Assembly (NCBI RefSeq): GCF_028737215.1
Contig: NZ_JAQZAM010000003.1
Coordinates: 1 to 64,000, forward strand
Direction: 5' to 3'
DNA length: 64,000 bases
Source: Actinomycetospora chibensis
Lineage (GTDB): Bacteria > Actinomycetota > Actinomycetes > Mycobacteriales > Pseudonocardiaceae
Below, piece by piece: positions 12,469 through 30,550 of this stretch. Position numbers and translations under genes: made by a program. Numbering within the stretch: position 1 is the stretch's first letter; each line of letters begins with the position of its first letter. The notes beneath the pieces were generated by a model that ran no database searches, was not told the DNA's origin, and saw only the letters and a program-made list of their open reading frames with translations.

Positions 12469-13548
12469 TCAGACCGCCGGGGTGCCGGGGCCCGCGACGC
12501 CGGGGCGGCCGCCGAACGGGTACGGGGCCGGCACGCCGGCGTCGTCGAGAGCGGTCTTGACCTCGGCGGCGACGGCACGCTGCACCGCCCACTGCTCGCC
12601 CGGGCGGGTCCGGATGGTCAGGCGCATGAGGACGCCCTCGGCGGTGACCGACTGGACGCCGAGCATCTCGGGCGGCGCGATCACCTTGCTCGCGATCTTC
12701 GGTTCGGCGCACTCGGCGTTGGCGGCCCGCTCGGCGATCTCGAGGGCGTCGTCGACGTCCGCCGAGTGCCCGACGGGGATGTCGACGACGGCCACGGAGA
12801 AGCCCTGGCTGGAGTTGCCGACGCGCAGCACCTCGCCGTTGCGGACGTACCAGACGGTGCCGGCGATGTCCCGCAGCGTCGTCACACGCAGGCCGACGGC
12901 CTCGACGGTGCCGGTGGCCTCGCCGAGGTCGACGACGTCGCCGACGCCGTACTGGTCCTCGAGCATCATGAAGATGCCGGACAGGAAGTCGCGCACGAGG
13001 TTCTGGGCACCGAAACCGATGGCCACACCGACGATGCCGGCCGACGCGATGATCGGGGCGAGGTTCACCCCGAACTCGCCCAGGATCAGCACGAAGGCCA
13101 CGCCGTAGATCAGGATCGTCGAGAACGACCGCAGCACGGAGCCGATCGCCTGCGCGCGCTGCGTGCGGCGCTCGACCATGAGCGGGGCGGCGTCGCGCAG
13201 GGTGCGCACCGCGCGGTCGCGCAGGGGCCGCAGCAGCGTCGGGACCCGTCCCTCGCCGGCGCCGCTGGTCAGGCGGTGGATCGCGCGGTGCACCGCGTGG
13301 CGCAGGATCACCGCGACGACGATGATCAGGAGGACGACGACGGCGTGCGCGAACAGCTCGTCGGCGGACCGGGACAGCCAGTCGGTCTGCGTGAGCCGGT
13401 AGACGCGGGCACACAGCGAGCCCTGGTCGGCCGCGCACGCGGGCGCCTCGGGCGGGATCGCGCTCGAGAGCGGGTTCTCCAGGAAGTCCGAGGGCGCCGG
13501 CGCGGGGCTGCTCGGGGCCGGTGGCGGTGTCGGGGGCGGCACGGTCAC
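12469..13548 (-). CDS. Mechanosensitive ion channel, MscS family
   Basis: This 359-residue membrane protein has a Pro-rich N-terminus (1-50), one clear TM helix ([14 protein letters not shown], ~68-82), then TM2/TM3 with [17 protein letters not shown] and the pore helix [20 protein letters not shown]. The beta domain follows ([19 protein letters not shown]), then the alpha/beta C-terminal domain. Only about three TM segments are seen, as in MscS. It releases solutes on hypo-osmotic shock. A TAGCGT -10 lies 8 nt before GTG 13548, so the transcript is nearly leaderless. It is the first gene of the mscS-glbO-DLH run. Confidence 0.9.
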
Positions 13549-19414: not shown

Positions 19415-20023
19415 ATGGCTGAGAAGACCCGCGTCGACTTCTGGTTCGACCCGCTGTGCCCGTTCGCCTGGATCACCTCGCGCTGGATGCTCGAGGTCGA
19501 GAAGGTGCGTGACGTCGAGACCCACTGGCACGTCATGAGCCTCGCCGTCCTCAACGAGGGCCGGGACCTGCCCGAGGAGTACGCCGAGATGATGAAGAAG
19601 GCGTGGGGCCCGGTCCGCGTCGCCATCGCCGCGGCACAGCAGAAGGGCGACGAGGTCCTCGCGCCGCTCTACACCGCGATGGGCACCGAGATCCACAACA
19701 ACGACAACAAGGACTTCGACGACGTCATCCCGAAGGCGCTCGCCGAGGTCGGCCTCGACGCCTCTCTCGCCCAGGCCGCGTACTCCGACGAGTACGACGA
19801 GGCGCTGAAGAAGAGCCACCACGAGGGCATGGACCCGGTGGGCATGGACGTCGGCACCCCGGTGATCCACGTCGACGGTTCGGCCTACTTCGGCCCCGTC
19901 CTGACCCGCATCCCCCGGGGGGAGCAGGCCGGCACGATCTTCGACGGCGCCAAGCTCCTCGCGGGCTACGAGTACTTCTACGAGCTCAAGCGCACGCGCG
20001 ACACCGAGCTGAAGTTCGACTGA
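19415..20023 (+). CDS. DsbA family (thioredoxin-fold) protein, mycothiol-related Rv2466c type
   Basis: This 202-residue DsbA/2-hydroxychromene-isomerase-like thioredoxin-fold protein begins [20 protein letters not shown]. The active-site motif is C-P-F-A, with one Cys only; M. tuberculosis Rv2466c has C-P-W-C. The cis-Pro segment is [10 protein letters not shown] (~150). Rv2466c is a mycothiol-dependent nitroreductase; with a single Cys this protein could still form a mycothiol mixed disulfide or act as a transferase, which is my inference. GGAAGGGG upstream supports the ATG. It diverges from pepN. Confidence 0.87.
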
Positions 20024-22556: not shown

Positions 22557-23669
22557 TCACCCCCGCGTGAGCCCGGCCGCGACGGTGCCGCGGGGGGCGA
22601 CTCGGGCGTCGGTGCGGGCGCGAGCGGCCTCGGCAGGGCTGCCGGGCGGGGCGGAGGTGACGTCCACGACGCGGATCGGTGGACCGACGTCGATCCACGT
22701 CGGCACGTACTCGGCACGCGCGACGCGCCACCGCCCGTCGGGACTCCGGGTGAACGTGAAGCGGCCGAGGGCGCCGTCGTCGGTGCCCGGGGTCTCCTGG
22801 TCGGCGAGCTGATTGCCGAGGCCGTAGGCGACCCACTCGTCGCCGAGGCGTTCGAAGGGTTGCACGACGTGCGCATGGTGGCCGATGAGCAGGTCGATGT
22901 CGGGGCTCGCGAGCAGCTCGGGGGCGAGGCGCAGCTGCTGGGCGTTCGGCTCGGGGTCGTTCTCGGTGCCCCAATGGGCGGACAGGACGACGACGTCGGC
23001 GCCGGCGGCACGGGCGCGCGATGCGGCGGCGAGCACCGGGGAGGGGTCGAGCATCGCCACGCTCCACGGATCGCCGGGCCGGGCGTCGTCGTTGACGCCG
23101 AAGGTGGCCGACAGGTGCGCCACCCGGACGCCGTGCACGTCGTGCAGCGTCGTGGCCGCCGCCTCGGCGGGTGTCCGGGCCGTGCCCGCGTGCCGCACAC
23201 CGGCGGCGTCGAGGGCGCCGAGCGTGCGCGCGACGCCGTCCGTGCCCTGGTCGAGCGCGTGGTTCGACGCCGTGCTGCACCCGTCGTACCCGACGGCGGC
23301 CAGCGACCGGGCGAGCTCGGGTGGCGCATTGAACGCCGGGTAGCCGGCGTACGGGCCGCCGGGCCGGGCGAGCGGGACCTCGAGGTGGCAGAGCGCCAGG
23401 TCGGCGCCGGAGATGATCGGGGCGAGCGCGGCGAGCTGCGGCGCGAAGTCCGGCACACCGCCGCCGTCGGCCAGGGCCTGTGCGGTCACCGTCGGGTGGA
23501 CCAGGACGTCCCCGCCGGCGACGAGGGTGAACGACGTCGGAGCGGGGGGCCCGGCCGACGGTCGGGCGGACGCTGCGGGGGAAGGGGCCGAGGAGGGCGC
23601 ACACCCGACGAGCACCGCGCAGGCCAGGAGGACGAGGGCGCGGACGAGCACACGCCCAGGGTGCGGCAC
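22557..23669 (-). CDS. CapA family (poly-gamma-glutamate synthesis-type) lipoprotein
   Basis: This protein of about 370 residues has an N-terminal hydrophobic segment ending in lipobox L-V-G-C, a Ser/Ala/Pro linker, then a CapA metallophosphatase-like domain. Its motifs are LVAGGDVLVHP, CHLEVPLA, ASNHALDQG, LSAHWGTEND and LIGHHAHVVQP, which supply the metal-binding His/Asp/Asn set. CapA proteins accompany poly-gamma-glutamate export, but the biochemical reaction is unsettled. GTG 23669 is the likeliest start; GTG 23651 is possible, and neither has a clear ribosome site. It starts 14 nt after the S9 peptidase stop, so it ends the four-gene operon. Confidence 0.82.
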   Translation of the reverse strand: MPHPGRVLVRALVLLACAVLVGCAPSSAPSPAASARPSAGPPAPTSFTLVAGGDVLVHPTVTAQALADGGGVPDFAPQLAALAPIISGADLALCHLEVPLARPGGPYAGYPAFNAPPELARSLAAVGYDGCSTASNHALDQGTDGVARTLGALDAAGVRHAGTARTPAEAAATTLHDVHGVRVAHLSATFGVNDDARPGDPWSVAMLDPSPVLAAASRARAAGADVVVLSAHWGTENDPEPNAQQLRLAPELLASPDIDLLIGHHAHVVQPFERLGDEWVAYGLGNQLADQETPGTDDGALGRFTFTRSPDGRWRVARAEYVPTWIDVGPPIRVVDVTSAPPGSPAEAARARTDARVAPRGTVAAGLTRG

Positions 23670-23683
23670 GGGCGCCCGCGGCG

Positions 23684-25528
23684 TCAGGACGAGGACGTCC
23701 CGAAGTGCGTGCAGAGCCAGTCCACGCACTCGTGGATGAAGCGCACGCGGTTCTCGGTGCGCTGGATCTCGTGGCCCTCGTCGTCGAAGAGCAGGTACTT
23801 CATCGGCACGCCGGCGGCCTTGGCGCCGTGGACGGCGAGCTCGGCCTCGTGCACCGGGACGTTGGTGTCGAACTTGCCGTGGATCACCAGCAGGGGAGCG
23901 CGCAGGTGATCCATGCGGTGCACGGGGGAGAGCTCGCGGAGCAGGTTGCGGTCGTGGATCGGGTGGCCGTACTCGCCGACCGCGGCGTCGGCGATCCACG
24001 GCTCGGTGCGCGCGAAGAACGTCTCGAAGTCGGCCATGCCGCACACGTCGATGCCGACCGCGAAGAGCTCGGGGTGGTTCACCAGCGCCGCGAGGGTGAG
24101 ATAGCCGCCGTAGGAGCGGCCCATGACGCCGACCCGCGCGGGATCGGAGACACCGGCGTCGACGAGGTGCTCGACGCACGTCGCGACGTCGCGGATCGCC
24201 GCGAAGCGGCCCGCGCCGTTGTCGGCGTTGACGAACGAGCGCCCGAACCCCGAGGAGCCGCGCACGTTGGCCGCGTAGACGGCGATGCCCCGGGCGAGCA
24301 GGTGCTGGTAGAGCGGGGTGAACACGGGGCGCTCCTGCGCCTCCGGCCCCCCGTGCAAGTAGATCACCGTGGGCAGGGGCCCCGCTTGGCCCCGCGGCCG
24401 GTAGAGCCACCCGGGCAGGCGCAGGCCGTCGGGGGTGGTGACGACCTCGAGCGTCGGGTGCACGAGCTGCCCCGGCGACCAGGACGGCTCCTCCTGCGGG
24501 CAGATCAGCGCGGTGGTGTCCGACGAGAGCTCGTGGCACCACACGGCGGCGGGCACCTCGGGGGCCTGGATGCCCATGACCAGGGAGTCGCCGTCGTGGC
24601 TGAAGACCGCGCTGGTGACGACGTCGCCGGGCGGGGCGTAGGCCTGGGACTTGCCGGAGGAGATGTCGAGCAGGTCGACCTCGCTGCGCCCCTCGGCGTT
24701 CCACACGAGCGCGGCGACCATCGCGTCCTCGGTGAGGGCGAAGCGCTCGAGCTCGGCGTCGAGGCGCTCGGCGAGCACCTCGGGCGTCATCGGCCGGGCG
24801 TCGGTCGCGACGTCGACGCGGACCAGCGCCGCGCGCTCGCGCCCGCCGTCGGTGAGCAGGTACATCTGGGTGCCGTCGGGGCAGAACCGGCCGGCGACCA
24901 CGCTGGAGTCCCGGGTGATCGCCACCGGGTGCTCGACCGCACCCGGCGGGCCGCCCGGTCCGCGCCCGGAGTCGATCTCGTGCCAGCCCTCGGTGCCGTC
25001 GAGGTCGACGATGCCGACGTGGCGTGACCCGCGACGACCGCGGCGCAGCAGCACCCGGCGCCGGTCGCGGCTCACGTCGAGGATCTGCAGGGCGTGCCCC
25101 GAGCCCACCCGCTGGCGCTGGGAGGACTCGGCGTCGACCAGCCACGCGGTGGTGGTCTCGTAGTCGGACTCGGTGATCGCCAGCACCGAGCCGGTGTGGG
25201 TGAAGCGGTCGAGGGTCACCGCGCCGCGGTCGCCGTCGCCGACCCCGCGGACCGGCCGCAGGTCGCTGCCGTCCGGCCGGACGATGCACACGTTGCTGCG
25301 CTCGCCGCCGTCGGGCGCGGTCTCGACCGCCAGCCACAGCCCGTCCGGCGACCAGCGGACGGTCGAGACGAGCTCGTCACCCGTGTCGAGCGACCACTCC
25401 TCGCCGGTGGCCCGGCGATGCATGCGCACCTGCGGCCGGCCGTCCCCGTCCCAGACGAAGGCGATCGTGGTGCCGTCCGGCGAGGGGCTGGGCGACCAGC
25501 AGCGTGTGGCGCTGATCCACTCGTCCAC
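23684..25528 (-). CDS. S9 family prolyl-oligopeptidase-like peptidase
   Basis: This 614-residue protein has an N-terminal beta-propeller (to ~360, with repeated blade motifs such as SPSPDGTTIAFVWDG and WSPDGLWLAVE) and a C-terminal alpha/beta hydrolase. The triad is Ser in MGRSYGGYL (~470), Asp in GKFDTNVPVHEA and His in DEGHEIQR. It resembles acylaminoacyl peptidases, which release N-acylated or short capped peptides. There is no signal peptide, so it is cytosolic. GTG 25528 is preceded by AAGGAGGA. It lies 52 nt after the amidotransferase gene, in the same operon. Confidence 0.9.
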   Translation of the reverse strand: MDEWISATRCWSPSPSPDGTTIAFVWDGDGRPQVRMHRRATGEEWSLDTGDELVSTVRWSPDGLWLAVETAPDGGERSNVCIVRPDGSDLRPVRGVGDGDRGAVTLDRFTHTGSVLAITESDYETTTAWLVDAESSQRQRVGSGHALQILDVSRDRRRVLLRRGRRGSRHVGIVDLDGTEGWHEIDSGRGPGGPPGAVEHPVAITRDSSVVAGRFCPDGTQMYLLTDGGRERAALVRVDVATDARPMTPEVLAERLDAELERFALTEDAMVAALVWNAEGRSEVDLLDISSGKSQAYAPPGDVVTSAVFSHDGDSLVMGIQAPEVPAAVWCHELSSDTTALICPQEEPSWSPGQLVHPTLEVVTTPDGLRLPGWLYRPRGQAGPLPTVIYLHGGPEAQERPVFTPLYQHLLARGIAVYAANVRGSSGFGRSFVNADNGAGRFAAIRDVATCVEHLVDAGVSDPARVGVMGRSYGGYLTLAALVNHPELFAVGIDVCGMADFETFFARTEPWIADAAVGEYGHPIHDRNLLRELSPVHRMDHLRAPLLVIHGKFDTNVPVHEAELAVHGAKAAGVPMKYLLFDDEGHEIQRTENRVRFIHECVDWLCTHFGTSSS

Positions 25529-25580
25529 CGGCCCGCGTCCTCCTTCGGTTGAGCACGATTCACCGTCGCGGGCACGGTAC

Positions 25581-27356
25581 CTACGTGATGCCGTGCTCCT
25601 GCAGCCACATCTCGAGCAGGGCCACCTGCCACAGCGCGTTGGCGCCGAGGTTGGTGCGGCTCGAGTTCGGGTCGTCGAGCATCGTCGCCACGGCGTCGGG
25701 CCGGAACAGGCCCCGCGACGTGGCGGCCGGGTCGGTCAGCGCGCCCCGCACCCGCTCCAGGACGGGGCCCGAGAGCTGGCGGATCGCCGGCACCGGGAAG
25801 TAGCCCTTCCTGCGGTCGATGATCTCGTCGGGCAGGACGCCGCGCGCCGCCGCCTTGAGCACGCCCTTGCCGCCGTCGGCGAGCTTGTACTCCGGCGGGC
25901 AGGCGCCCATCGTCTCGACGAACTCGTGGTCGAGGAACGGCACGCGCGCCTCGAGGCCCCACGCCATCGTCATGTTGTCGACGCGCTTCACGGGGTCGTC
26001 GACGAGCATGATCGTGGTGTCGAGGCGCAGCGCGGCGTCCACCGCGGAGTCGGCCCCCGGCCGCCCGAAGTGCTCGGCGACGAACGCGCGGCTGACGTCG
26101 TCGTCCACGAGAGCCTCGGGGGTGAGCAGCTGCGCGACCTCGGAGTGCGGGCGGTCGAAGAACGCCTTCTGGTACGAGTCGAGCGCGGCGTCGCGGGCGA
26201 CCCCGGCCAGCGGCGGGTACCAGTCGTAGCCGCCGAGGATCTCGTCCGCGCCCTGGCCCGACTGCACCACCTTGATCGACTTCGAGACCTCGCGGGAGAG
26301 CAGGTAGAAGGCGACGACGTCGTGGCTGACCATGGGCTCGGCCATCGCCGCGACGGCCCCCGCCAGGGCGTCGTCGGTCTCGTGCTTGGGGACCGTGAAC
26401 CTCACGTGGTCGGTGCCGTAGGTCTTCGCGACGAGGTCGGAGTAGTCGAACTCGTCGCCGGACTCGCCGCCCTCGGCCTCGAAGCCGATGGAGAACGTCT
26501 TGAGGTCCTTCTGACCCATTTCCGCGAGCAGGGCGACGACGATCGAGGAATCGATGCCGCCCGAGAGCAGCACCCCGACCGGCACGTCGGCGACCATGCG
26601 CCGCTCGACCGCGGTGCGCAGCGAGTCGAGCGCCGTCTGCGCCCATTCCTGCGCGGAGCGGTCGCCGTCGCGCGTGAACTCGGGCTCCCAGTAGGTCCAG
26701 TCGGTGGTGCCGCCGTCGGGGGAGATCGTGCGGATCGTCGCGGGCGGGAGCTTCCGCACGCCCTGCAGGATCGTGCGCGGCGCGGGGACCACCGAGTGGA
26801 AGCTCATGTAGTGGTGCAGCGCGACGCGGTCGACGTCGGTGTTCAGCCCGCCGCCGGCCAGCAGCGCGGGCAGTGACGACGCGAAACGGACCGCGCCCGG
26901 CACCTGGGCGACGTAGAGGGGCTTGATCCCGAGGCGGTCGCGGCCGAGCACGAGCTCGCCGGTGCGGCGGTCGGAGACCGCGAACGCGAACATGCCCTTG
27001 AAGTGCTCGACGCACGACGGGCCCCACCGGTGGAAGGCCTTGAGCAGCACCTCGGTGTCCGATGTGGAGAAGAAGCGGTAGCCCTCGGCGTGCAGCTCGT
27101 CGCGCAGCTGCTTGTAGTTGTAGATGATCCCGTTGAAGACCGCGGTGAGGCCGAGGTCGGAGTCGACCATCGGCTGGGCGCCGGTCTCGGACAGGTCGAT
27201 GATCTTCAGGCGCTGGTGGGCCAGCGCGAGCGGCCCGTGGCCGACCACACCCCAGCCGTCGGGCCCCCGGGGCTCGAGGACCCGGGCCATGTCCAGCACG
27301 GTGGCGACCTCGGCCGCCCGGCCGTCGAAGCGGAACTCACCGGCGATGCCGCACAC
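25581..27356 (-). CDS. Asparagine-synthase-like amidotransferase (N-acetylglutaminylglutamine amidotransferase type)
   Basis: This 591-residue protein has a class II glutamine amidotransferase domain (nucleophile Cys2 in MCGIAGEF, then EPRGPDGWG and FNGIIYNYK) and a C-terminal asparagine-synthase ATP-pyrophosphatase domain with PP-loop LLSGGIDSSIVVALL (~265) and VVQSGQGADEILGGY. It should adenylate a carboxylate and amidate it with glutamine-derived ammonia. The overall shape and partner genes suit the AsnO-like enzymes that make the terminal amide of NAGGN, a dipeptide osmolyte. It starts 42 nt after the ligase fusion; GAGGAGG precedes GTG 27356. Confidence 0.88.
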   Translation of the reverse strand: MCGIAGEFRFDGRAAEVATVLDMARVLEPRGPDGWGVVGHGPLALAHQRLKIIDLSETGAQPMVDSDLGLTAVFNGIIYNYKQLRDELHAEGYRFFSTSDTEVLLKAFHRWGPSCVEHFKGMFAFAVSDRRTGELVLGRDRLGIKPLYVAQVPGAVRFASSLPALLAGGGLNTDVDRVALHHYMSFHSVVPAPRTILQGVRKLPPATIRTISPDGGTTDWTYWEPEFTRDGDRSAQEWAQTALDSLRTAVERRMVADVPVGVLLSGGIDSSIVVALLAEMGQKDLKTFSIGFEAEGGESGDEFDYSDLVAKTYGTDHVRFTVPKHETDDALAGAVAAMAEPMVSHDVVAFYLLSREVSKSIKVVQSGQGADEILGGYDWYPPLAGVARDAALDSYQKAFFDRPHSEVAQLLTPEALVDDDVSRAFVAEHFGRPGADSAVDAALRLDTTIMLVDDPVKRVDNMTMAWGLEARVPFLDHEFVETMGACPPEYKLADGGKGVLKAAARGVLPDEIIDRRKGYFPVPAIRQLSGPVLERVRGALTDPAATSRGLFRPDAVATMLDDPNSSRTNLGANALWQVALLEMWLQEHGIT

Positions 27357-27398
27357 GTGTGGCCTCCTCGGTCACGATCGGTCGGGGAAACGCGCTGG

Positions 27399-29981
27399 TC
27401 AGCGCAGGATCCAGGTGTCCTTCGAGCCCCCGCCGCGCGAGGAGTTGACCACGAGCGAGTCGGCGGGCGCGACCCGGGTGAGCGGCGTCGGGAGGACGGT
27501 CGGGGTGGGCGCGAGGACGACGAACGCCCGCAGGTCGACGACGCGCGGCTCCAGCGTCGTGCCGGTGAACGTCGGGTGGGTGGAGATCCGGATGGTCTCC
27601 TGCGCGACGAACGCCGCGGGGTGCGCGCGCACCGCCGCCGCGACCTCGTCGAGCTCGTGGCTGCTCGCGTAGGGCCCGACCACGATGCCCTGCCCGCCAT
27701 ACCCGTCGACAGGCTTGGTGACGAGCTGGTCGAGGTGGGACAGCACGTACTCGCGCTGCTCGGGATCGGCGCACGACCAGGTCGGGACGGCCGCGAGCGT
27801 CGCCTTCTCGCCGAAGTAGTACTCGGTGAGCGACGAGATGAAGGGGTAGACGCCCTTGTCGTCGACGAGGCCGTTGCCGGGCGCGTTGGCCAGGGTCAGG
27901 CGACCGGTGCGGACGGCGTCGCGGACGGGATCGCCCAGGGGGACCCCCTCGGCGTCCGGCGCGCTGAAGAGCACCTCCTCGTCGATGCGCCGGTAGATCA
28001 CGTCGATCGGGCGCCCGGTGGCGGCCACGGTGATCATCCCGGCCACGGCGCGGAGGTCGCCCGGTGTGAGCAGCGGCACGCCCATCTCCTCGGCGAGCAT
28101 GCGGTGCTCGAAGTGCGCCGAGTCCGTCGTTCCCTCGGTGACCAGGACGAGGACGGGGTCGTGGCCCGCCGCCGGCGGGGCGCACGCGAGCAGGGCCTCG
28201 CGCAGCATCGCCGGGCCCTCGTCGGCGTCGAGCACGCCGTTCGGGGCCTGGAGCTCCGGCAGGACGCTGCGCACGACTCGGCGGTCGGCCATCGCGTAGC
28301 CGATGCCCGAGGGGATGCGCAGGTTGTCCTCGAGGATCTTCCACTCGCCGGCGGCGTCGCAGACGAGGTCGAGGCCGCTGACCAGGGCCCGGACGGCCCC
28401 GGGGTGCAGGTTCATCGCGGTCTCGTGCGGCTGCGGCAGCCAGCGCAGCGCGTCCTCGGGCAGCACGCCGTCGTGCAGGCAGGCGCGCTCGCCGTGCAGG
28501 TCCTGCAGCAATGCCTCGCAGGTGCGCGCCCGCTGGATGAGGCCCTCGGTGAGGGTCTCCCACTCGCCGGGGGTGATGAGGCGGGGCACCAGGTCGAGGG
28601 GGAAGAGGCGCTCGTCGTCGTCGGCCTGGGGGAAGACCATGCCGCGGGCGCGCTGCTCGGCGTCGCGGCTCTTCTCGTGGACGAGCAGCCCGGGCGGGCC
28701 GATCCGCTCGAGCGTCGAGATCAGCCACGAGTACGCGGGGCGGACGGTGCCGTCCTCGGCGACGGCCTCGTCGTAGGCGGGCGGCGCGTAGTCGCCGAGC
28801 AGGACCGGCGCGACCGTCTCTGAGACCGGCGCGTCCACCGGCGAGTCCGGCGCGCCCCGGGTCTCGGCGAGGAGCATGTCGACGACGGCCTCGAGGTTGC
28901 CGTTGCGGTTGGCGCGCTGGCGCTGACGGGCCGCGGAGCTGCCGCGGGCGAGGGCCTCGAGGGCCAGCTCCTCGACGACGTCGCGGTCGCCGGCCTCGTC
29001 CAGGTCGTCGGCGAGGTGCTCGAGCATGAGGCGCACCGCCCGTGACGGGGGCACGAGGTCCCGGCCGGGGACGTCGACGAGGTCGCCCTCGAGGCCGGAG
29101 CGCGCCGCCCGCCAGCTCGCGGCGCGCAGCAGCTCGGGGCGGTACTGCGGCATCGGCCGGCCCTCGACGTGCGCGCGCACCCCGTGGCGTACGAGCGCCC
29201 GGGAGAGCCCGGCGATCAGCACCACGCCGTCGACGCTGGGGCTGGCGTCGCAGATGCGCACCTCGACGGTGGCCTGGTGCGCCGACGGACGCATGTCGAA
29301 ATAGACCATGCCGGGGTCGGACATCGTCCCCGAGGCGAGCAGGTCGGCGATCAGGGCGTCGTAGTCGGCGGCGTCGCGCAGCGGGGCCGGGGGACCGGCG
29401 GTCGGCCACCGGTGCCACGCCAGCGTGCGGGAGCTGGCGTAGCCGGTGTCCTCGTTCTTCCAGAACGGCGAGCTCGACGAGAGTGCGAGCAGGACCGGCA
29501 GCCACGGCGCGCTGTGCTGCATCACCGCGACCGCCGCATCACGGTCGGGGACGTCGACGTGCACCTGGGTGCCGCAGATCTGCTGCTCGAAGGCGAGCAT
29601 CTGGTACTCGTCGCGCATCCGCTCGTAGCGGGGCGACGGGGTGATGCCCTCGGCGGAGCCGTCGATCAGTGGGACGCTGCCCGCCCCGACCACGCCGAGA
29701 CCGTGGGAATCGGCGATGTTCGCGAGCATCCCGCGCAGTCGGACGAGATCGGTGCGCAGGTCGGCGAGGTCCGACGTCGGCTGGGAGTTCGTCTCGATGA
29801 TCGAGGGCTTGAGCTCCGGGGCGAACGCCTCGCCGTCCAGGGCCTGCAGCTCGTCGAGCAGCTCCGGGACGCGGGGCACTGCCGACCGGGACTCCAGGTC
29901 GACGAGGTGGAACTCCTCCTCGACACCCATCACGACCTCGCCCGCGGGGGTCAGGCGGCGGTCCGTCGGTCGCGTTCCCAT
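27399..29981 (-). CDS. Carboxylate-amine ligase (YbdK/GCS2) fused to circularly permuted ATP-grasp
   Basis: This 860-residue fusion has a GCS2 (glutamate-cysteine ligase type 2, YbdK) domain at residues ~10-370, with MGVEEEFHLVD, ELKPSIIETNSQP, GTQVHVDVPD and TVEVRICDASPS. A circularly permuted type 2 ATP-grasp domain follows at ~395-855, with RPAYSWLISTLERIGPPG, ILEDNLRIPSGIGYAM, LVTKPVDGYGGQGIVVGP and the C-terminal NSSRGGGSKDTWIL. Both form amide or peptide bonds from ATP-activated carboxylates; the GCS2 half usually uses a glutamate gamma-carboxylate. Together they should build a short gamma-glutamyl or dipeptide product. ATG 29981 follows TAAGTT by 8 nt. It heads the operon. Confidence 0.9.
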   Translation of the reverse strand: MGTRPTDRRLTPAGEVVMGVEEEFHLVDLESRSAVPRVPELLDELQALDGEAFAPELKPSIIETNSQPTSDLADLRTDLVRLRGMLANIADSHGLGVVGAGSVPLIDGSAEGITPSPRYERMRDEYQMLAFEQQICGTQVHVDVPDRDAAVAVMQHSAPWLPVLLALSSSSPFWKNEDTGYASSRTLAWHRWPTAGPPAPLRDAADYDALIADLLASGTMSDPGMVYFDMRPSAHQATVEVRICDASPSVDGVVLIAGLSRALVRHGVRAHVEGRPMPQYRPELLRAASWRAARSGLEGDLVDVPGRDLVPPSRAVRLMLEHLADDLDEAGDRDVVEELALEALARGSSAARQRQRANRNGNLEAVVDMLLAETRGAPDSPVDAPVSETVAPVLLGDYAPPAYDEAVAEDGTVRPAYSWLISTLERIGPPGLLVHEKSRDAEQRARGMVFPQADDDERLFPLDLVPRLITPGEWETLTEGLIQRARTCEALLQDLHGERACLHDGVLPEDALRWLPQPHETAMNLHPGAVRALVSGLDLVCDAAGEWKILEDNLRIPSGIGYAMADRRVVRSVLPELQAPNGVLDADEGPAMLREALLACAPPAAGHDPVLVLVTEGTTDSAHFEHRMLAEEMGVPLLTPGDLRAVAGMITVAATGRPIDVIYRRIDEEVLFSAPDAEGVPLGDPVRDAVRTGRLTLANAPGNGLVDDKGVYPFISSLTEYYFGEKATLAAVPTWSCADPEQREYVLSHLDQLVTKPVDGYGGQGIVVGPYASSHELDEVAAAVRAHPAAFVAQETIRISTHPTFTGTTLEPRVVDLRAFVVLAPTPTVLPTPLTRVAPADSLVVNSSRGGGSKDTWILR

Positions 29982-29989
29982 AACGGGCC

Positions 29990-29995
29990 AACTTA
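29990..29995 (-). promoter_or_regulatory. -10 element TAAGTT for ligase operon
   Basis: On the minus strand TAAGTT (TANNNT) lies 8 nt before ATG 29981 without a Shine-Dalgarno sequence between. Transcription of the four-gene operon would start at or just before the start codon. Confidence 0.5.
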
Positions 29996-30079
29996 CGATC
30001 GGTGTGTCACGGCAATGTTTCCGAGCCGCCGTCCACTACCCCTGCGGCGGCGTGTCTCACACCTGACAGACTGCGCGGT

Positions 30080-30550
30080 GTGCGCGTCTTCGTCGGATCG
30101 GACCACGCGGGGTTCGAGCTCAAGGCCCATCTGCTGCGCGAGCTCGCGAAGGCGGGTCACGACGTCGTCGACGTCGGGCCCGAGGAGTTCGACCCCGTCG
30201 ACGACTACCCCCCGTTCTGCGTGGAGACCGGGCGCCGCACCGTCGCGTCCCCCGAGGCCCTCGGCGTCGTCATCGGCGGCTCGGGCAACGGCGAGCAGAT
30301 CGCGGCCAACAAGGTGCCGGGCTGCCGCGCCGCCCTGGCGTGGAACGTCGAGACCGCGCAGCTCGCGCGCAAGCACAACGACGCCCAGGTCGTCTCGGTC
30401 GGCGCGCGGATGCACACCGCGGAGGAGGCGACCGAGATCGTCACGGCGTTCCTCGCGACGGCCTTCGAGGGCGGGCGTCACCAGCGGCGCATCGACATGC
30501 TCACCGCCTACGAGCAGACCGGCGAGCCCCCGGCCCTTCCCCAGGACTGA
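30080..30550 (+). CDS. rpiB: Ribose-5-phosphate isomerase B
   Basis: This 156-residue RpiB/LacA-family protein begins VRVFVGSDHAGFELK, with VIGGSGNGEQIAANKVPG, whose GSGNG loop binds the phosphate and where mycobacterial-type enzymes use a Glu base, and the AWNVETAQLARKHNDAQV active-site helix. It interconverts ribose-5-P and ribulose-5-P in the pentose phosphate pathway. GTG 30080 is chosen because it gives the family N-terminus; CAGACT lies 7 nt upstream, suggesting a leaderless transcript. It is divergent from the ligase operon and 44 nt before nei. Confidence 0.94.
   Translation: MRVFVGSDHAGFELKAHLLRELAKAGHDVVDVGPEEFDPVDDYPPFCVETGRRTVASPEALGVVIGGSGNGEQIAANKVPGCRAALAWNVETAQLARKHNDAQVVSVGARMHTAEEATEIVTAFLATAFEGGRHQRRIDMLTAYEQTGEPPALPQD

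Follow-up and report, generated by a model that had tools for sequence, protein, structure and literature searches.

The window analysed here is the whole of a 64,000-nucleotide stretch from Actinomycetospora chibensis (RefSeq assembly GCF_028737215.1, contig NZ_JAQZAM010000003.1, positions 1 to 64,000 of the forward strand), taken from a genome of 6.18 Mb in 55 contigs. Its minus strand carries an operon for a ligase, an amidotransferase and a peptidase. The ligase, of 860 amino acids (27399..29981), is a fusion of a GCS2 domain of the YbdK family with a circularly permuted ATP-grasp domain. It is followed by AsnO, a 591-residue member of the N-acetylglutaminylglutamine amidotransferase family TIGR03104 (25581..27356), and by an S9 family peptidase of 614 residues that resembles acylaminoacyl-peptidases (23684..25528). 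A PGA_cap/CapA-like lipoprotein gene (22557..23669, also minus strand; PGA_cap 214 bits) is adjacent but lies outside the conserved unit. An earlier note on this DNA had proposed four co-directional genes with gaps of 42, 52 and 14 nt, and the open reading frames confirm all of this, the 14-nt gap presupposing that CapA starts with the GTG at 23669. The operon of fusion, AsnO and S9 peptidase behind one leaderless promoter is real, and its three-gene core is conserved. By its sequence, it is a conserved actinobacterial relative of the system that makes N-acetylglutaminylglutamine amide (NAGGN), with both the ligase and the peptidase replaced.

The link to the NAGGN system is provided by AsnO, which is a full member of TIGR03104 (934.8 bits against a cut-off of 570.1) and matches the Pfam families Asn_synthase (297 bits) and GATase_7 (149 bits). 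The scores for TIGR03104 split cleanly over 396 genomes of the phylum: 46 genomes lie above the cut-off and the next reaches 378 bits. The lowest score above the cut-off is 644, and both of those below 890 come from genes cut by a contig end. In the source genome, the best match to the model of the NAGGN ligase Ngg (TIGR03103, cut-off 569) scores 32.6 bits and lies elsewhere than the operon, and the NAGGN-type M42 peptidase (TIGR03106) has no match. The earlier note had spoken of an AsnO-like enzyme and of a parallel with the NAGGN system; both statements turn out to be stronger than they were made.

The N-terminal half of the fusion (GCS2, 177 bits) exceeds the cut-off of the YbdK-type carboxylate-amine ligase model TIGR02050 (267.2 versus 176.4 bits), and the C-terminal half matches the circularly permuted ATP-grasp models CP_ATPgrasp_2 (PF14403, 361.5 bits) and CP_ATPgrasp_1 (PF04174, 276 bits). 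In an AlphaFold2 model built from 50 alignment rows (pLDDT 80.0, pTM 0.75), the two halves are predicted to fold like YbdK and glutathione synthetases, respectively. In Foldseek searches with the model, the N-terminal half matches YbdK with a TM(target) of 0.80-0.84 (1r8g, 0.84) and the C-terminal half matches 3n6x with 0.80, eukaryotic glutathione synthetases being less close (about 0.5-0.6). This fold suggests two successive ligations, in which a gamma-glutamyl group would be joined to an amino acid and a further amino acid then added. The bifunctional glutathione synthetase GshF likewise combines a glutamate–cysteine-ligase-like domain with an ATP-grasp ligase. Unlike GshF, however, the fusion is drawn from the subfamilies YbdK/TIGR02050 and CP_ATPgrasp, is followed by an amidotransferase gene, and as a modelled whole chain matches the bifunctional glutathione synthetase 3ln7 weakly (TM(target) 0.34-0.35); the GshF equivalog models TIGR01435/PRK02471 are absent among the ten families listed for it.

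The fusion and AsnO occur together well beyond this genome, so that the first condition under which the earlier note would have been refuted, a co-occurrence confined to this DNA, does not hold. Scanning with an alignment of 17 fusion rows gave 345 confirmed loci, the best 80 of which, closest relatives rather than a random sample, are the named loci considered below (Actinomycetospora 11, Pseudonocardia 16, Actinoplanes 8 and Frankia 6, among others). AsnO lies downstream of the fusion in 79 of these 80, at a distance of at most 200 bp in 65 of the 79 and of up to 2450 bp in the others, and Ngg is near the fusion in none of the 80. Within the family of the source organism, 18 of 150 genomes have an AsnO over the cut-off; 13 of the 17 other than the source carry fusion, AsnO and S9 peptidase. 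The remaining four, all from genus g244, lack the fusion and have an AsnO that is divergent; in two of them a GCS2 gene lies on the other strand.

The S9 peptidase (Peptidase_S9, 146 bits) has the 'Amino acyl peptidase' 5l8s as its best match among solved structures (125 bits). Its GRSYGG, Asp and His motifs stand in the expected order, as do Cys2 and SGGIDS in AsnO; we take these to be the telling motifs of the two families. The peptidase is near the fusion in 70 of the 80 named loci, and in 7 of them it is in pieces. In six of the ten loci without it (L153, L175, L180, L197, L198, L200), AsnO is followed by an EgtC-like gene, that is, in every S9-less locus that holds AsnO and is uncut by a contig end, except L170, which has neither peptidase nor EgtC-like gene. 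Of the others, L168 and L172 are contig-cut and L146 also lacks AsnO. In ergothioneine synthesis EgtC acts as a gamma-glutamyl hydrolase, and the EgtA/EgtC pair similarly links a GCS2 ligase to a class-II amidohydrolase of this type. Unlike that pair, the four EgtC-like proteins scanned fall just below the TIGR03442 cut-off (204.3-216.2 versus 218.65 bits) and the EgtA model gives only 23 bits on the fusion; no recognised egt genes surround the EgtC-like gene at the two loci inspected (L153, L197).

CapA does not share this conservation. The earlier note had made it part of the unit, as an exporter or trimmer of the product, but it is near the fusion in only two of the 80 named loci, both from Actinomycetospora, and in none of five fusion loci from genomes of the same genus, so that it is rejected as a conserved part, and export or trimming by it has no support. 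In two Actinomycetospora loci, LGFP-repeat plus glyoxal/galactose-oxidase-like proteins are encoded near CapA (L123:14420-16549, L125:13395-15452); CapA may be part of this group and not of the fusion operon.

The partners of AsnO were surveyed at the other 45 of the 46 phylum loci above the TIGR03104 cut-off. An Ngg-like protein adjoins AsnO in 31 of them (the query among them reaches 877 bits against TIGR03103). The 14 non-Ngg loci comprise three with fusion and S9 peptidase (L076, L078, L080), four with GCS2 alone and S9 peptidase (L069, L072, L073, L075), three with separate GCS2 and ATP-grasp genes (L063, L067, L084), and one each with ATP-grasp alone (L061), GCS2 alone (L083), S9 peptidase only (L070) and a contig cut (L085). 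At L061, where the circularly permuted ATP-grasp gene stands alone, AsnO is directly followed by a DUF1028 gene (L061:9831-10550, 239 bits), possibly a further hydrolase in the place of the peptidase.

One genus, that of G204, contains both systems. All of its 121 genomes have an AsnO over the cut-off; 84 have Ngg and 21 the fusion, including one with both, and 17 have neither. In G887, one of the 21, the match to the fusion starts only at position 365. Ngg and fusion thus occur together once against 14.6 expected (Fisher p 8e-12, uncorrected for kinship). Strict mutual exclusion is ruled out by G941, the genome with both. The genus is probably Micromonospora, since the AsnO of G941 (L318) branches as sister to the M. 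noduli protein. It also contains a third type of AsnO, which scores about 900 bits for TIGR03104 and is found in genomes with Ngg, in genomes with the fusion and in genomes lacking both. In six of eight fetched loci this type faces, end to end, a GCS2 gene of the YbdK type that is encoded on the other strand (adjacent in L301, L302, L303, L305 and L306, about 1.8 kb away in L304), and a similar arrangement occurs in L117 and L118.

AsnO itself hardly differs between the two settings. With incomplete rows omitted, and with 12 rows of genus g314 assigned to the Ngg-linked set on the evidence of a single locus (L308), the 72 Ngg-linked and the 93 fusion-linked sequences share one residue, present in at least 95% of each set, at 216 of the 591 AsnO columns. 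Of these 216, 95 differ from one asparagine-synthase-type paralogue of the source genome. Only three of the 591 columns separate the two sets, and this near-identity suggests a substrate whose amidated end is probably common to both contexts. In a quick tree, the fusion-linked AsnO proteins form one branch (SH-aLRT 99), which includes L070, where AsnO and S9 peptidase occur and no ligase was detected in the locus. The Ngg-linked proteins are not one clade, because the type with separate GCS2 and ATP-grasp genes falls among them. The contig-cut L085 entered the first tree as non-Ngg and was omitted from the second, from which 17 further near-duplicate rows were also removed. Over 62 loci, and with organism phylogeny uncontrolled, the distance matrices of fusion and AsnO correlate at 0.94-0.95, and those of AsnO, S9 peptidase, GCS2 and ATP-grasp at 0.89-0.96.

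The single leaderless promoter of the earlier note is upheld by comparison. In the window, a -10-like TAAGTT (29990..29995, minus strand) precedes the ATG of the fusion at 29981-29979. A pattern of this layout, GTRAC-N8..11-TANNNT-N3..14-RTG, precedes the fusion in 42 of 81 loci (the 80 named loci and the window's own) against 3 of 5742 background windows. Further upstream is a direct repeat, GAAAC-N6-GTGAC (30006..30021, minus strand), which by sequence resembles published boxes of the regulators GlnR and MtrA; those listed for GlnR include gTnAc-n6-GaAAc and GAAAC-n6-GTATC (PMC10704036). GAAAC-N6-GTNAC or variants of it are found upstream of the fusion in 20 of the 81 loci and in 17 of 3458 background windows. 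Both patterns were chosen after inspection of the sequences, and the loci are related to one another. In 12 Actinomycetospora loci the arrangement is GGAAACA–N–GTGACAC with TANNNT, the start codon following 5-9 nt further on. By genus, the box or a variant is present in all 12 Actinomycetospora loci, window included, and in 6 of 13 loci of Actinoplanes/Paractinoplanes. It is absent upstream of all 28 Ngg-type asnO genes, and is therefore no common mark of the two systems. According to the accessible parts of two papers, MtrA senses osmotic stress and activates ectoine genes (PMC13189361), and ectABCD is activated by MtrA and repressed by GlnR (PMC13189361, PMC10704036). The GlnR/MtrA-like box, as read from the sequence of some genera, would fit osmotic or nitrogen control. 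Divergent from the fusion is a gene for a ribose-5-phosphate isomerase B-like protein (30002-30547, plus strand; LacAB_rpiB 161 bits), and the box lies within the intergenic stretch common to both genes if that protein starts at about 30080.

The canonical NAGGN system is a trio of asnO, ngg and an M42 peptidase gene (TIGR03104, TIGR03103 and TIGR03106). The operon shares with it the AsnO family, a two-domain ligase with an ATP-grasp domain, and a peptidase. In contrast to Ngg, which joins a GNAT domain to a RimK-like ATP-grasp and is encoded after asnO, the fusion joins GCS2 to a circularly permuted ATP-grasp and is encoded before it; the M42 peptidase gives way to an S9 peptidase or an EgtC-like protein. 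The ligase had been called non-homologous to Ngg in the earlier note. This holds for GCS2 versus GNAT, but each ligase has an ATP-grasp domain, although of different families.

No description of the fusion–AsnO set was found in the literature searched; neighbourhoods of this type may, reportedly, have been listed by Iyer et al. 2009. A study of salt stress in Frankia describes an 'asnO-ngg' cluster in which AsnO is more than 60% identical to other AsnO proteins, 'Ngg' is less than 15% identical to its counterparts, and a peptidase lies between (PMC5563000). This is probably the same type of locus; the accessible text of that paper keeps the NAGGN assignment and does not name a GCS2–ATP-grasp fusion. 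In what is accessible of two Micromonospora papers, NAGGN clusters are treated as core (PMC11537254, PMC12915310), and a proteome of Frankia alni has FRAAL1888 up 2.20 and FRAAL2171 up 1.5, tags that are not adjacent in number and are unmapped to the fusion locus (PMC5768760). Annotation based on AsnO assigns NAGGN as the product to a cluster with a different ligase protein. The small protective peptide of the many actinobacteria with this gene set is probably related to NAGGN and possibly different from it.

It is tempting to propose that the product is a gamma-glutamyl-capped peptide amide, made by a NAGGN-like pathway in which the ligase has been replaced, and on the sequences we favour this tentatively, at a little short of an even chance. 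The GCS2 domain would join the gamma-carboxyl of glutamate to an amino acid, probably Gln, and the ATP-grasp domain, glutathione-synthetase-like in its predicted fold, would add a second residue. AsnO would convert the C-terminal carboxylate to an amide, as it does on N-acetylglutaminylglutamine, to give, for example, gamma-Glu-Gln-Gln-NH2 instead of acetyl-Gln-Gln-NH2. The S9 peptidase, or the EgtC-like protein in some lineages, would cleave the capped peptide so that its nitrogen is recycled, and the GlnR/MtrA-type box would in some genera place this under osmotic or nitrogen control, with a role as compatible solute predicted as likely. The fuller claim is rather doubtful: an unrecognised actinobacterial family of gamma-glutamyl-capped, C-terminally amidated osmolytes under GlnR/MtrA control, with a GshF-like fusion in place of Ngg beside AsnO and with gamma-Glu-Gln-NH2 as the product in strains with GCS2 only. 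If true, many clusters now called NAGGN are misassigned. If the product differs from NAGGN, then Pseudonocardia, Frankia, Actinoplanes, Streptosporangium and other genera would contain a new class of compatible solute; if it is NAGGN, ligases that are unrelated, each next to the same amidotransferase, would have arrived at a single osmolyte by convergence.

Several observations weigh against the gamma-glutamyl-capped amide. The GCS2-only loci imply that the ATP-grasp step is not universal, and G941 has Ngg as well as the fusion. No strict box precedes the fusion in Pseudonocardia (0/16), Frankia (0/6) and Micromonospora (0/5), and the leaderless GTRAC pattern is absent in all 27 Micromonosporales loci. 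A match covers both fusion domains in 42 of 345 genomes of the class, and among 23 of these, picked by hand, 15 have an AsnO over the cut-off, that of G813 on a different contig, and eight have none, so that AsnO is not an obligate partner. Four of the eight belong to one family, in which two fetched loci pair the fusion directly with S9 peptidase (L313, L314); two other fetched loci of this kind (L312, L316) have neither S9 peptidase nor AsnO. Lastly, GNAT genes (Acetyltransf_1) in five Frankiaceae fusion loci, downstream of AsnO/S9 in L149, L151, L154 and L161 and right after AsnO in L317, would fit an acetyl cap.

These GNAT genes lead to the main rival, somewhat unlikely in our estimate, in which the product is NAGGN itself and the fusion offers a non-orthologous alternative route to it: the ATP-grasp domain would join two Gln, a GNAT from the operon or elsewhere would acetylate, and GCS2 would have another or a transient protecting role. 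An AsnO that is nearly indistinguishable between the two contexts and the near exclusion of Ngg and fusion within one genus speak for this route, but a matching GNAT is missing from the other 76 of the 80 named loci (searched with the Frankia GNAT only). GCS2 would have no evident use there, yet it is GCS2 that the GCS2-only loci keep while losing ATP-grasp. A Micromonospora strain, of M. provocatoris, does make NAGGN by nuclear magnetic resonance, but the paper, as far as accessible, names asnO and ngg (PMC8146288), and true Ngg is present in the 84 genomes of the presumed genus noted above.

The fusions without AsnO, together with the GlnR-type box and the GshF-like domain logic, could instead point to a gamma-glutamyl peptide used for nitrogen storage, signalling or redox, with AsnO as an optional tailoring enzyme. 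We consider this improbable, as AsnO accompanies the fusion in nearly all of the closest loci and has hardly changed from the NAGGN enzyme. For other clusters with circularly permuted ATP-grasp proteins, Iyer et al. 2009 are said to have proposed peptide tagging. Ligases that tag proteins or cell-surface polymers with a peptide, CapA and S9 peptidase acting on the tag outside the cell, would suit the CP_ATPgrasp family and the CapA gene of the window and its two relatives. This is the least probable of the explanations: CapA is not conserved, no tag acceptor was seen, and the membership of AsnO in the NAGGN family speaks for a small-molecule substrate.

Elsewhere in the window, an MscS-type mechanosensitive channel is encoded at 12472-13548 (minus strand; MS_channel_2nd, 54 bits). 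The earlier note had cited it in connection with osmotic stress; the gene is indeed present but, at about 9 kb from the operon and with no evident link to it, adds little. A protein resembling the mycothiol-dependent nitroreductase Rv2466c (310 bits) is encoded at 19415-20020 on the plus strand.

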